A stretch of DNA of 64,000 nucleotides from assembly GCF_036322805.1 (NCBI RefSeq), contig NZ_AP027272.1, positions 3,596,001-3,660,000 of the forward strand. The letters are read 5' to 3'. Below, piece by piece: positions 1 to 5,971 of the stretch. Origin of the DNA: Planctobacterium marinum (GTDB taxonomy: Bacteria > Pseudomonadota > Gammaproteobacteria > Enterobacterales > Alteromonadaceae). Every line of letters starts with the position of its first letter. Within the stretch, counting starts at the first letter, position 1. The notes below the pieces were generated by a model. The model saw nothing but the letters and a program-made list of their open reading frames with translations. It did no database searches and was not told the origin of the DNA. A program made the position numbers and the translations under genes.

Positions 1-549
1 GCGTTAAGAGCAAATGAGGCCGGCTTTTCTCCCTACTGGCAATTTCCGGTCTGCTCTCGAGAGGTTAGGAAGCTTAGTTTGGTTGCGCTCAATTTCTCTG
101 GAGATTTACACGAAAGTTGGCGAGCTTCATTCGGCACGGAACTGAGGGATCCGACTGCTGACAGGCGCATAATAGAATATTGTTTGGCTATTCCCGATGA
201 ACAATACTTGAATCGAAAAGGTTTGCGCTGGCTGGCAACCCGGGCTTTTGCCGAACAACTACCAAAGGCAGTACTACACAATAACTTGCGTGGTACGCAA
301 GATCCGGGTTGGTATTTGCGTATGCAACAAAGCAAAAGAGAGCTTGAATTAGAATACGAACGATTGGTACAAAACACCACGGCGCAGCAAGTGCTAGATT
401 TACCAAGGATGAGACAATTGTTGAACGACTGGCCAGACAATTCTGCGAACTGGAATTCGAAACAAATAATAGGTAGATACCGGCTAGGATTGTCACGAGC
501 CATAATGGTAGGACGTTATATACGCTGGTTTGAAGGAGACAAACGTTAA
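1..549 (+). CDS. Asparagine synthetase-like lasso cyclase (C protein), C-terminal part only
   Basis: The reading frame is open from the first base of the window, so this is the 3' end of a gene that begins to the left (182 codons seen). The residues ELRDPTADRRIIEYCLAIP, then a G-x-R-x-L pair and a LP-x-x-V stretch, match the end of the ATP-dependent amidotransferase domain of asparagine synthetase B. In RiPP loci this family (lasso C protein) adenylates an Asp/Glu side chain to close the lasso ring. The link to a lasso-type pathway is inferred from the B2 protease and ABC exporter downstream; the sequence alone could also be an ordinary AsnB-like enzyme. It converges on the oxygenase remnant, leaving a gap of about 36 bases. 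A TTG at 79 is an internal codon, not the start. Confidence 0.75.
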   Translation, partial: ALRANEAGFSPYWQFPVCSREVRKLSLVALNFSGDLHESWRASFGTELRDPTADRRIIEYCLAIPDEQYLNRKGLRWLATRAFAEQLPKAVLHNNLRGTQDPGWYLRMQQSKRELELEYERLVQNTTAQQVLDLPRMRQLLNDWPDNSANWNSKQIIGRYRLGLSRAIMVGRYIRWFEGDKR

Positions 550-585
550 GGTCCAGGCAGTCCAAAGTGCCGGGCATGAACTATT

Positions 586-1566
586 TCAATAGCGCTCCAA
601 TCTAACTGGCAATCGATGCCCCCAATTTTCTTTGCGCCAAGGTCCATCGATGAAGTACGAAGACTCATGGGCAAAGTTTAAATAGCCACAAGAAGACAAA
701 ATTAAGCGTTGGTCATCTTCCACTATCGCCCTTCGACCATGCATATGTCGTGAGTTATCTAACATAAGAACATCAGACTCCTGCCAGTTAACCTCATGGG
801 TAATCTGCTCAGCCTCATCTTTGACGGTCTGTAAAAGCTCAGTTGAAACCAACGTACCATCGCCAAAGAATGGAAAGTTCTTCAGCTTATGCCTGAATCG
901 CGCGATGAGTAACAAGTTGCCAAACGCCAATTGATTTTTCCACATTGGCTTGTGTAACGCTGGTACGATGTAAGATGAGGATATTCCATCTTTTGTTTTG
1001 ATGAAATTAAAAGGACAATCACTTCTGATTGAGCTTAAATCATTCTTGTCGTTCAACCAGAAATCGAGTTCTTCTTGCGTCGCCCTGTTTTGATAGACCA
1101 AAAAATTTTTCTTCAACCGCTTTTGATCATTTACATCAAGTTTCTTGTCTAACCTTTTTACAAGCTCAATTCCATCACAAATAGTGGTTTGTCCTCCAGA
1201 GGTTGGTGGTTTTAAACAGGCAAAAAAACAGACTTCTGGCTTCCATGGGTCTTTAGCGAGTTCAGCGTTCAATGGAAATTCATCAAAGCCCAAATTAACG
1301 GTTTGAATATTATTTTTTCCATCTAATAGTTTTCGCTGTTTACTACCGTTGAATACCGAAAAATCACAAAACGATTGCGCGAAGCTTCTAAATATAGCTT
1401 GATCTGTTTTAAATCCGCGAAATAAAAGTGCACCTTTGTCAAGATAGGCTTCAATGATTTGTTGTCGATCGATGTTAGTTAAACGTTCATCTTTACAGTT
1501 AGGATTAACTTCGAGATAAATACCGAGATCTTTTAACGTGATGTAGGGGATGTCATCAGAGGGACC
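586..1566 (-). pseudogene. TauD/TfdA-like Fe(II)/2-oxoglutarate oxygenase, no start codon, probably decayed
   Basis: The frame holds 326 codons with the TauD-like order: GALLFRGF near residue 48, FPL-N-A-E where the family normally has L-H-x-E/D, CFFACLKPP-TSGGQTT-x-x-DG, and a C-terminal NSRHMHGRRAI segment carrying the distal His and Arg. Family members usually use a His-x-Asp/Glu...His triad to bind iron; here the first His is Asn (codon AAC, one base from CAC). No ATG, GTG, TTG or CTG lies in the first 90 codons, and TAG at 1567-1569 closes the frame upstream. The first usable start, TTG at 1293, would remove the N-terminal third. Missing start plus lost ligand suggest a pseudogene. Such oxygenases can hydroxylate or desaturate RiPP or amino-acid substrates; the substrate here is unknown. 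Confidence 0.6.
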
Positions 1567-2200
1567 CTATATTTCGCCAGGTTTCTAAAATGATTTGGGT
1601 GTAAGAGTACGGAAGACTTAGTATGCCACAAAGCTTGCAAAGCTACTATCGATGTGTACCGAACTTACAGGGGCATAAATTAGCTCTTGTAACACCTGTT
1701 TTTTCCCAGCAAAGAGAAGTTTTACAACGAAAACCATGCAATCCACTATGTTGCTTAACATTTTATCCCCCGGGGTAATTGCGCCAGATCCCAACTACTC
1801 TTCTTCTTATGCCTGTATAACGCTGTGTTTGAGCATTACTGAGACGTTGACACGCCATAAGCCTCTTTTCAATGCAGTTTATGTAATTCTCGAAAAGTAA
1901 CCCATTAACATCAGACTATTTCGATATCAATACTATATTTGGGTATTATATAAACATCAAAGCCCCATTTTAAATGAAGAAAAATTGCAGTGTTCTGGTA
2001 TTGGTAAGGTTATCACTTTTACTATCTGGAACAATATGTATGGCACCGGGGCAGAGCAACAGAACAAAAGCTTCTGGTTGAGTTGGATATTATTGATTTA
2101 GAGGAATAGGCTGGGGTATTTCAAGTCACTCCTAGCAATTAAAGAGGCTCAGTGATCTGCTACTAACTTGATGGCAACAACTCAAAAATACCGTTAAAAA
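1567..2200. other. Gene-poor 634-base gap in the RiPP-like locus, with three doubtful small ORFs
   Basis: No recognisable gene is present. Three short ORFs have plausible starts. Minus 1618-1761 has 47 codons starting MLSNIVDCMV, with GGGGGA five bases before the ATG. Plus 1623-1778 has 51 codons starting MPQSLQSYYR, with GGAAG seven bases before the ATG; it overlaps the first ORF antisense. Plus 1974-2081 has 35 codons starting MKKNCSVLVL, with a hydrophobic stretch ending LLLSGTIC. None shows the usual lasso leader/core pattern: penultimate leader Thr, then Gly or another small residue at core position 1, with Asp/Glu at core position 7-9. The stretch may hold remnants of the oxygenase 5' end. 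Confidence 0.4.
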
Positions 2201-2650
2201 CTAGATAAAGTGTGACACACTGACAAACTCTTGTTCAACATCACCGCCAGTTATTACCCCTTCGCAGCAAGAGAGCCACGCATGTGCAGCCATTCCCTGC
2301 CCATTATTTGAGCCGGACTTAACTCCCAGGTAAAGTTTGCTTGATTGCCCGCGAAAGCCCAGCATCCACTTTGCAGTCATTGCTTGTGGCAAACATAATG
2401 CTTGCCACGGTACATGGTAAGCCGCACTTTTCACAGCCCACGCAATCCTGAAACGCTTTTCTTGAGAGATTTTGGGCTGTTTATGAACACGACTGGTTGA
2501 CATGGACTCACCTATCAATTTAACCCAATATTTAAACGGAAATGCCCAAACCAAAAAGCGCGCGATTGCCAATAGCATACATGCCTCAATCCAAAGTAAT
2601 AATTCCGTAGATTTAATTTGTCTCAGCTTTTTAAGTGTGGTCACTTTCAT
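2201..2650 (-). CDS. Lasso peptide biosynthesis B2 protein (transglutaminase-like leader protease)
   Basis: The product has 149 residues, the usual size for stand-alone B2 proteins. The core is ALCLPQAMTAKWMLGFRG with Cys86 as the likely nucleophile, then LYLGVKSG, then AAHAWLS with His123. This is the Cys-His arrangement of the transglutaminase-like superfamily found in the leader-cleaving half of split lasso B proteins. The N-terminus carries a hydrophobic helix (about residues 17-37), as is common in this family. The ATG at 2650 is preceded by AAAGGA nine bases upstream. The B1 partner (PqqD-like recognition element) is not in the window and may lie to the left. It is divergent from the nucleotidyltransferase gene, with a 99-base gap that could hold promoters for both. 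Confidence 0.8.
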   Translation of the reverse strand: MKVTTLKKLRQIKSTELLLWIEACMLLAIARFLVWAFPFKYWVKLIGESMSTSRVHKQPKISQEKRFRIAWAVKSAAYHVPWQALCLPQAMTAKWMLGFRGQSSKLYLGVKSGSNNGQGMAAHAWLSCCEGVITGGDVEQEFVSVSHFI

Positions 2651-2749
2651 CGCTTTAATCCTTTAGATTTCAAATGAATTCACCTCGCAATAGCAGTGAT
2701 AAAATCGTAAACTAAAGCGACCAGAAAAGACACCAGGATCGCTCAACAG

Positions 2750-3945
2750 TTGCAATTGACTTCAAACTACCAACCGTCAAAAGAATTGTCACTCCTACTT
2801 ACTGCCGCTACTTTAGGCTGTCCGCTCAAGGATAGCCAACGACTAGAATTAACATGGAAGGATATTGACTGGCAAAAGACATTAAAATTAGCAAAATTTC
2901 ATGGGCTGAACTGTTGGCTGGCCGAATATGTAAAAGACGAACCAGAAATACCCAATGAGATAAGGAAAAGGTTGACATTAAGGCACCGAAAACAACTGTT
3001 ATTCCATGTTTTTACAGAGCAAAAAAAACAGAAATAGTAAACCTTCTAACACAAGCCAACATTCGTTTTGCAATCATAAAAGGAGTTGCCATAGCAAAGC
3101 CAGTATTTGGAGAGCGTTGGTATTACCGTTCGATTCTTGATCTTGATATTCTAATTGACCCCGTGCAGCTAGAAAAGGCTTTTGAACTATTGAAAAGCCA
3201 AGGCTATATCGATACTTGCAACGAGCCACTGAACTCTGCTGACTTCAAAAAAATAGCAACCGATCATCAAAAATTAGTGCTCATAGAACACACTATCGAA
3301 CTCCCTGAGCGACAATTGGAATTAGATATTCACTGGAAACTTAGACGCAACGCTCTACTACCCATCGAATATAGCGATTTATTCAATAGTATAAAATCTG
3401 ATAATACTGTCCCCCGCCTAATAGAGCCTCTTGAATTTATATATTTATGCGTTTGTGGAACTAACGATGGTTGGCAAAAATTAAAATCCGTTGTGGATAT
3501 TCTGTATTACGCCCAACTTATTGAGGATTGGACGGTAGTTAATAAATTAGCTGACAGGCTCGGATTAGCACATATTGTCAATGCATCACTTGCAGTATGT
3601 GACTATTTTTTTGGTACATGTTACGGTCCGATTCAGCTAAGTCGCAAAGAACACACCATTTGTGCATTCGTCATAAGTAGTTATCTCAAATATGGTGAAA
3701 TTCCACATGTACACGGGTATATCAATAATAGTAATCTTTACCAGTTTGCTAAATCAACCCTGTCTTGGTGGATGGCGATTAACAGTGATTTAGTTTCACC
3801 ATTAACGGTGCTCAGGGAATTAGCAACACCAAATAACGAAGATATTGCGAAGGGTACATTATCTGATGAGAGTGGTATGGTCAGTCAGCTCTTGAAACGA
3901 TTAGTCAGAATTGTTCGAAAATACTACATGGCTAAACGTGATTAG
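2750..3945 (+). pseudogene. Nucleotidyltransferase family protein (NTP_transf_5 type), split by a frameshift at an A8 run
   Basis: Two frames belong to one gene. Codons from TTG 2750 run to TAG at 3035-3037. The second frame continues the same family from about 3022 to 3945. Joined near 3021-3028 they give about 398 residues, with IRFAIIKGVAIAKP, then RSILDLDILID holding the D-x-D pair of the nucleotidyltransferase fold, then LELDIHW. This matches the uncharacterised nucleotidyltransferases often found in asparagine-synthetase/B2/ABC RiPP loci. The break lies in eight consecutive A residues; one more A would restore a single frame. It could be a true lesion, a sequencing error, or slippage at the A-tract. 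The 3' end overlaps the start of the ABC gene by eight bases when GTG 3938 is used. Confidence 0.7.
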
Positions 3946-5689
3946 AAAATATTTAGCTTTTATCGCCAATATTGTTGGCAAAGACACACTATTTGCTGCG
4001 ACAGGCTTATTTGCACTGGGATTTATGGAAGGTGTCAGCCTGATGTTGATTATTCCATTACTGGCAACTATTGGTGTAACGGAACAACAGGTGACCAGCC
4101 ACCCTATCACCCTCAAGCTTACTCAGTTTGCTGATGCTATCGGTTTACCCTTAAACATTTTTACTGTGCTATTAGCTTTTATAGTATTAATTGCGATAAG
4201 AGAATTGCTTATTAAGCGACAAACCATCCACAATAACGCCATACAACAAAAAATAGTTAATGCATTTCGACTAGAGCTTTATAAAGCGCTTATTTATAGT
4301 AACTGGTTACTTTTCACGAAAATACGCCATTCAGATATGACTCAGGCGTTGACCCAAGATATAAACCGTATTGGCTTGATGGTATTAATCTCTATCAGGA
4401 TGGCCTCTACAATAGTGATCGCCAGCGTCTATTTAATTGGTTCTTTTATTGTTTCGTTTGAGATGACCTTGCTTACTTTTTTAAGCGTTGTTCTACTGTT
4501 GTGGTTTGGACGTAAGAAGCTAAATGACGCCTATCGATTTGGTGGCATTCACACCAGCCATCACGATAAAATGTATTCATTGATCAGTGAGAGCCTCACA
4601 GGTATTAAAACAGCCAAATGTTTTAGTAGCGAAAATCGGCAAGTTGCTGATTTTGCCAGTAACATAGATGCGATTTATGAAGTTCAAAGCCAAACTTGTG
4701 CAAGCAGAGCTAATGCTAAGTTCATGTTTGGCTTAGGTACGGCAATAATTTTGGCCAGTTTTTTATTTATTGCTGTTGAGATGTTACAACTTTCGATAAT
4801 CTCAATCTTGGTATTGGTATTTTTGTTCTCTCGCCTATCACCAAAAGTATCGTTATTGCAACAAGATCTGCTCCGATTAATCAATACCCTACCAGCTTTG
4901 AGCTCCTTTGATCAATTGTTAACGCAAGCTCAGGCATGCTTTGAACAAAATGGAAAAGAAACCAAACTGGTTGCACCAGAAAGACAGATCACCCTTGAAA
5001 ATATCTGCTTTTCTTACATACCCATCGATAATGCAACTACGGTAAAAACCTTAACTGACGTCCAGCTTACTATTCCCGTTGGACAAATAATTGGGATTAT
5101 CGGCCCATCCGGCTCAGGTAAAAGTACTCTCGCAGACATTTTGATGGGTTTGATCGCACCTCAAAGTGGCGAAATCAGAATTGATGGCAATAAACTCAAA
5201 GAAGAGCAATTATTGCAGTGGCGTAGACATATCAGTTACGTGCCACAAGAGACTCACTTATTCCATGATAGCGTCAGAAACAATTTACTCTGGAGCAAGC
5301 CAGATGCTACAGAAGCACAATTGTTGACCGCGCTCAAACAGGCAAATGCGCTCGATTTTGTAATGGCACTACCCCAAGGATTGGATACGTCAGTTGGTGA
5401 AAAAGGAATCGGGTTGTCAGGTGGTCAACGTCAACGCCTTGCTCTAGCAAGAGCATTACTGCCTGACCCAACATTGCTCATTCTGGACGAAGCTACCAGT
5501 GCTTTAGATGATGAAAATCAAAGCACAATTATGAAGGTAATAAATCAATTAAAAGGGAAACTAACTACTGTCATAATCACCCATCATCTATCTAGTCTGC
5601 GAGACGTTGATCGCATATATATTATGAAGAATGGTCAAATTGAGGATTATTTGAGCTCTGAAATTACTGAAAAGAACTTTTTAACATAA
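3938..5689 (+). CDS. ABC transporter, fused membrane and ATPase domains (RiPP exporter type)
   Basis: The 583-residue half-transporter has a six-helix exporter domain (about residues 1-320) followed by an ATPase domain. Walker A is GPSGSGKST (near 390), the Q-loop follows in SYVPQETHLF, the signature is LSGGQRQRLALARA (near 493), Walker B is LLILDEATSALD (near 515), and the H-loop is ITHH. All ATP-binding residues appear intact. There is no N-terminal C39 peptidase, in line with leader removal by the separate B2 protein. Exporters of this type (McjD-like) move the mature peptide out and give self-immunity; that role is inferred from context. GTG 3938 overlaps the preceding stop and is preferred; a TTG at 3911 would add nine residues. 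Confidence 0.8.
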   Translation: MIRKYLAFIANIVGKDTLFAATGLFALGFMEGVSLMLIIPLLATIGVTEQQVTSHPITLKLTQFADAIGLPLNIFTVLLAFIVLIAIRELLIKRQTIHNNAIQQKIVNAFRLELYKALIYSNWLLFTKIRHSDMTQALTQDINRIGLMVLISIRMASTIVIASVYLIGSFIVSFEMTLLTFLSVVLLLWFGRKKLNDAYRFGGIHTSHHDKMYSLISESLTGIKTAKCFSSENRQVADFASNIDAIYEVQSQTCASRANAKFMFGLGTAIILASFLFIAVEMLQLSIISILVLVFLFSRLSPKVSLLQQDLLRLINTLPALSSFDQLLTQAQACFEQNGKETKLVAPERQITLENICFSYIPIDNATTVKTLTDVQLTIPVGQIIGIIGPSGSGKSTLADILMGLIAPQSGEIRIDGNKLKEEQLLQWRRHISYVPQETHLFHDSVRNNLLWSKPDATEAQLLTALKQANALDFVMALPQGLDTSVGEKGIGLSGGQRQRLALARALLPDPTLLILDEATSALDDENQSTIMKVINQLKGKLTTVIITHHLSSLRDVDRIYIMKNGQIEDYLSSEITEKNFLT

Positions 5690-5936: not shown

Positions 5937-5971
5937 ACAAAAATTGACTAAACAGCTATCAGGAAAGAATC

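Follow-up and report, generated by a model that had tools for sequence, protein, structure and literature searches.

Gene content and genomic setting

The window, that is, the whole stretch of 64,000 nucleotides from Planctobacterium marinum that was analysed, corresponds to bases 3596001-3660000 of one 4.87-Mb contig, and the sequence could be extended to the left. Features outside the window on its left carry genome coordinates (C1), and those inside it carry window positions. The gene cluster at its left edge contains the following features, in their order from left to right.

C1 3591314-3591445, plus strand: precursor of 43 residues, 4.7 kb left of the window (pattern search, NCBIfam match)
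C1 3591447-3591737, plus strand: B1, PqqD-type (NF033536, 94 bits, cut-off 80)
C1 3591752-3592618, minus strand: sulfotransferase (PF00685, 100.9 bits)
C1 3592615-3593559, minus strand: HPr-kinase-like protein 1 (26.6% identity to the kinase of locus L015)
C1 3593544-3594461, minus strand: HPr-kinase-like protein 2 (Hpr_kinase_C, 25.9 bits, below the cut-off of 33.3)
Start C1 3594594, window 1-549 (last 182 residues), plus strand: C, lasso macrolactam synthetase, AsnB-like, 651 residues (NF033535)
586 to about 1560, minus strand: TauD/TfdA-type oxygenase frame with no usual start (PF02668, 62 bits, cut-off 27; 85 bits over a longer frame)
2201-2650, minus strand: B2, leader protease, transglutaminase-like (NF033537, lasso_biosyn_B2, 83.1 bits, cut-off 33; PF13471, 73.4 bits)
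2750-3037, plus strand: nucleotidyltransferase, N-terminal part (profile positions 11-89, weak, 12.5 bits, E 0.011)
3019-3945, plus strand, other frame: nucleotidyltransferase, catalytic part (profile positions 101-346, 94 bits; NTP_transf_5, 48.7 bits, cut-off 31.2)
3938-5689, plus strand: ABC exporter, putative GTG start at 3938 (ABC_tran, 128 bits; ABC_membrane, 32.6 bits)

For this lasso locus, a precursor and the full gene order, which are invisible from the window alone, are now given. Two genus-conserved genes, which we take to be map and glnD, follow to the right of the ABC exporter end (5689). The gap between map and the gene that we take to be rpsB measures 41.3 kb here, as against 306 and 335 bases in the same-genus genomes (two of the two searched), and holds a stretch that has no counterpart in them.

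C1 3560684-3601971: 41 kb between rpsB and map, right end at window position 5971

This stretch was probably acquired. G+C is 40.8% in the cluster and 43.5% in the remaining window, the lower value being a weak sign of foreign origin. C was found in one of 147 genomes of the family, namely the source genome itself (E 1e-80), and no second genome carrying the whole locus was found in this sample; searching 84,980 species genomes with the cyclase returned no relative. Beside the lasso cluster, the 41-kb stretch also encodes Wzz-like, DsbH-like, FG-GAP/ASPIC, TPR-cytochrome and giant repeat proteins. A Peptidase_S74-type protein lies directly left of the precursor.

Precursor and core enzymes

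An earlier note on the window had named a cyclase end, a TauD-like oxygenase, B2, a nucleotidyltransferase and an ABC exporter, all of which are present with scores above curated cut-offs (for the cyclase end, Asn_synthase at 1-549, 47 bits, cut-off 21). Its reading as a lasso-like RiPP locus was borne out, as precursor and B1 were found 4.3-4.7 kb left of the window, both inside the distance of about 10 kb that had been named beforehand. A relaxed precursor pattern was run over 101 kb (the window plus 37 kb to the left) and gave two matches, the true precursor to the left and a second match in an unrelated frame; it identified no precursor inside the window, in agreement with the same note.

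The precursor open frame, MDTENKLSEQSKAEWEKPELEICELNQTQAAGGSGPDGLGQTT, is preceded by a Shine-Dalgarno-like sequence and ends one base before the B1 gene. Its leader ends in ...WEKPELEICELNQTQ. Thr at leader position -2 is given as a known rule for lasso precursors in PMC10368454, and following this rule the predicted core was placed at AAGGSGPDGLGQTT, with Asp8 as putative ring acceptor; Thr at -2 and Asp at core position 8 are both present (NQTQ/AAGGSGPD, with the slash at the predicted cleavage site). The sole NCBIfam match of the precursor was the paeninodin family NF033524 (24.6 bits, E 1.5e-5). Because this score lies under the cut-off of 27, the precursor was named paeninodin-like and not a family member. 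The score counts against the lasso reading, as does the predicted core, which has no bulky residue for holding the thread.

The C gene starts 1407 bases left of window position 1. Its product begins with MSAIAG, keeps SGGIDS and has no Cys2, and among NCBIfam models it scores best with the lasso cyclase NF033535 (333.8 bits), although below the cut-off of 525, which also counts against the lasso reading. An ordinary AsnB, which would have refuted the earlier note, was ruled out for this partial gene, since Cys2 is missing, the lasso model is best and B1, B2 and the precursor adjoin. In B2 the conserved Cys and His (AHAW) are present, and the core enzymes look intact from their sequences.

Survey of B1-anchored loci

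B1-anchored places in other genomes were collected from samples of the class (20 places in 13 genomes of 369), the order (2 places in 2 genomes of 247) and the phylum (28 places in 26 genomes of 398). Among these 50 loci, 32 also have a C-like gene by sequence search, and 12 have a sulfotransferase that matches the present one in type (E below 1e-40). Kinase, sulfotransferase and nucleotidyltransferase genes recur across the proteobacterial lasso loci surveyed.

The best match in gene content was L101 (genome G951), which has B1, B2, a sulfotransferase, two kinase-like genes, a nucleotidyltransferase and C. It differs in having two precursors, one of which ends in WEKPEMTKIKMDQTLSNVGSVADGGLGSTP, and in having no TauD; no ABC gene was detected in its 20-kb stretch with phmmer. 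W..P, T at -2 and D8 of the precursor described here recur in both of its precursors. From the survey counts and L101, the combination of kinase and sulfotransferase genes is an established one.

Tailoring genes

The sulfotransferase looks intact at the sequence level. For the kinase-like proteins, PMC9266682 states that the HPrK-like kinase acting on a C-terminal Ser of lasso peptides requires His-Lys-Asp-Asp, and neither of the two carries this full set. Kinase-like protein 1, for which no Pfam family scored above its cut-off, has K, S, D and E at these positions, the conserved His being replaced by Lys and the Walker Lys by Ser. Kinase-like protein 2 has H, K, E and D, so that His and Lys are kept and Glu-Asp replaces Asp-Asp. 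Across 25 aligned kinase-like proteins, a selection from the loci and a subset of those found, the Walker Lys is kept in 24 and the His in 22; the remaining two proteins that have lost the His (L101, L102) likewise come from loci that carry two kinase-like genes.

The TauD-like protein belongs to its family by sequence and fold: it matches TauD-family structures, and its closest solved chains include At3g21360. Its structure model has a mean pLDDT of 73.5 (54.7-60.1 for the other four models); this moderate model speaks only to the fold, and the claim on the iron site draws on the sequence alignment. In that alignment the first iron-ligand His is replaced by Asn (PLNAE), where His is found in eight of eight relatives and three of three solved chains, and the triad HxD/E...H accordingly reads NxE...H. 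The Asn codon, AAC, is one base away from a His codon, and the distal MHGR motif is retained. No ATG, GTG or TTG was found in the frame ahead of the domain. A ribosome-binding-like AGGG stands ahead of an ATG that is shifted by one base from this frame; read from that ATG, a stop follows after seven codons. The relative G1018 (45% identity) starts at roughly the corresponding position. The frame runs for 324 codons with no stops, a point against a reading by decay, since so many open codons would mean that decay set in recently or that the gene still has some use.

With these lesions in iron ligand and start codon, the protein is probably not a working hydroxylase and most likely leaves the peptide unhydroxylated. 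The hydroxylated peptide that the earlier note had proposed on account of this gene was not supported, and an oxygenase gene adjoining a lasso cluster need not imply a hydroxylated peptide. We consider it very unlikely that the protein is expressed from a non-standard start, holds iron by Asn, Glu and His, and hydroxylates the peptide in the manner of canucin A by CanE. The stop-free frame, the MHGR motif, other 2-oxoglutarate oxygenases adjoining lasso genes in L015, L044, L089 and L093, and a known 2-oxoglutarate enzyme that hydroxylates a lasso peptide (described in PMC9266682) are in line with such activity, whereas the His conserved in all relatives and solved chains and the missing in-frame start argue against it.

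Using a nine-sequence profile with which every one of the eight control TauD loci is recovered (leave-one-out E at most 7.1e-42), TauD was found in none of the 50 other B1-anchored loci, some of them represented by short contigs (3 to 11 kb). The oxygenase is therefore unusual, as had been noted earlier, and TauD as hallmark of a lasso subtype was rejected. The nearest relatives (G1018, G350 and HyVt-581; top identities 45% and 36%) lie outside lasso loci. A TauD-pair search of 84,980 species genomes gave two loci, one of which is apparently the G350 locus, and a plasmid search with TauD gave 22 records, all below 60% identity. No description of TauD in a lasso cluster was found in the literature searched, to which little weight is given because coverage of subscription papers was thin. 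That the gene is a bystander with no relation to the peptide is rather unlikely: its absence from the other loci and the placement of its nearest relatives are what such a gene would show, but it sits inside the cluster between C and B2, in the same orientation as B2.

The loci of the three closest TauD relatives each carry a divergent neighbour of 351-368 residues, and the three neighbours are alike by eye; no Pfam match was found for those in L014 and L075.

L014 10642-11697: divergent neighbour of TauD relative
L021 7798-8853: divergent neighbour of TauD relative
L075 8924-10030: divergent neighbour of TauD relative

The nucleotidyltransferase was compared with a local profile built on eight lasso-locus nucleotidyltransferases, all of them unsplit. 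Its NTP_transf_5 domain is present, yet the protein is not encoded in a single open frame: it consists of two collinear parts in two frames, with the junction at an A8 run (3021-3028). The catalytic motifs KG and DxD are retained. This split and the TauD frame with no usual start codon go beyond what the earlier note had described.

An in-frame A_AAA_AAA is a slippery pattern. The run at the junction (CAA AAA AAA) reads in this way and the required shift is -1, so that a functional protein made by -1 frameshifting or transcript slippage would fit, also with the retained KG and DxD; given that the eight relatives in the profile are unsplit, we regard this as unlikely. Somewhat less doubtful is a sequencing or assembly error behind each of the frameshifts in TauD and the nucleotidyltransferase, with both proteins full length, as the nucleotidyltransferase break falls in an A8 homopolymer and both frames are otherwise open. 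Against this, a simple ORF map gave long intact genes across the other 58 kb of the window, with no comparable split there; several further A8 and A9 runs occur, and the His to Asn change in TauD would persist in any case. The long intact genes indicate that such splits are not general to the assembly, with single errors still possible. An assembly error as possible source of the frameshifts, together with the lack of a second genome with the locus, counts against reading the tailoring set as eroded.

Comparison with known systems

The locus resembles the paeninodin and pseudomycoidin clusters of Bacillota (kinase, nucleotidyltransferase, split B1/B2, ABC) in its B1, B2, C, ABC, HPr-kinase-like and NTP_transf_5 genes and in a leader pattern near the paeninodin family. 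Sulfotransferase and nucleotidyltransferase genes are reported in such clusters in the review PMC8498205. Unlike those clusters, in which a C-terminal Ser is modified by the kinases, the core here ends in Thr-Thr, and the locus has a sulfotransferase, two kinase-like proteins of which one is catalytically degenerate, a split nucleotidyltransferase and a TauD gene.

Canucin A and CanE of Streptomyces likewise combine a lasso cluster with an iron/2-oxoglutarate-type oxygenase gene (PMC8498205 and PMC9266682), a likeness in enzyme type as given in the literature. In contrast to that system, the TauD protein described here has neither the first iron-ligand His nor a usual start, and the core has no C-terminal Asp. 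Judged by gene content, the locus would join an already known type, with TauD as its unusual element.

Proposed biosynthesis

With precursor, B1, C, B2 and ABC within one stretch, we consider it highly probable that the locus is a lasso cluster of the B1/B2-split kinase-sulfotransferase-nucleotidyltransferase kind, whose tailoring set is partly eroded and whose exported peptide is probably sulfated and may also be phosphorylated. By family membership, B1 would bind the leader of the 43-residue precursor and B2 would cleave after ...NQTQ. C would then couple the Ala1 amine to the Asp8 side chain, giving an eight-residue ring threaded by the tail GLGQTT, and the ABC protein would export the peptide.

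Given an apparently intact sulfotransferase, and His and Lys both retained in kinase-like protein 2, sulfation and perhaps phosphorylation are the likely decorations, with Ser5, Thr13 or Thr14 as candidate sites. It is speculation that a modified Thr holds the thread in this core with no bulky residue. The lesions in kinase-like protein 1, the nucleotidyltransferase and TauD are observed, and crippled function would be expected from them. A joint reading in which TauD and kinase-like protein 1 are not decaying but selected pseudoenzyme scaffolds, which either hold the precursor or act as partners of the active sulfotransferase and kinase-like protein 2, while a sulfate or phosphate on Thr-Thr locks the plug-less core, appears highly improbable.

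Other oxygenases and neighbouring genes in the surveyed loci

PF05118 aspartyl/asparaginyl beta-hydroxylase domains adjoin lasso genes in three loci with a sulfotransferase and a kinase. As a source of hydroxylated lasso peptides, these oxygenases look more promising than the TauD protein.

L044 10563-12461: PF05118 domain protein, the domain fused to a second sulfotransferase
L089 13342-13923: PF05118 domain protein
L093 8080-8907: PF05118 domain protein

A genome of the same order carries a lasso locus (L015 4437-13005) with a different 2-oxoglutarate oxygenase, PF13640, and a weak sulfotransferase match; its precursor ends in QTQGGSVSSDELASSKVGS. Near lasso genes and a sulfotransferase, L047 (genome G288) encodes a tryptophan-halogenase family protein at 4059-5546 (PF04820, 317 bits). 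Two loci from a single genus have phage tail-collar-like proteins next to their lasso genes, at L044 4572-5102 (PF07484) and, by eye, at L047 3393-3908.
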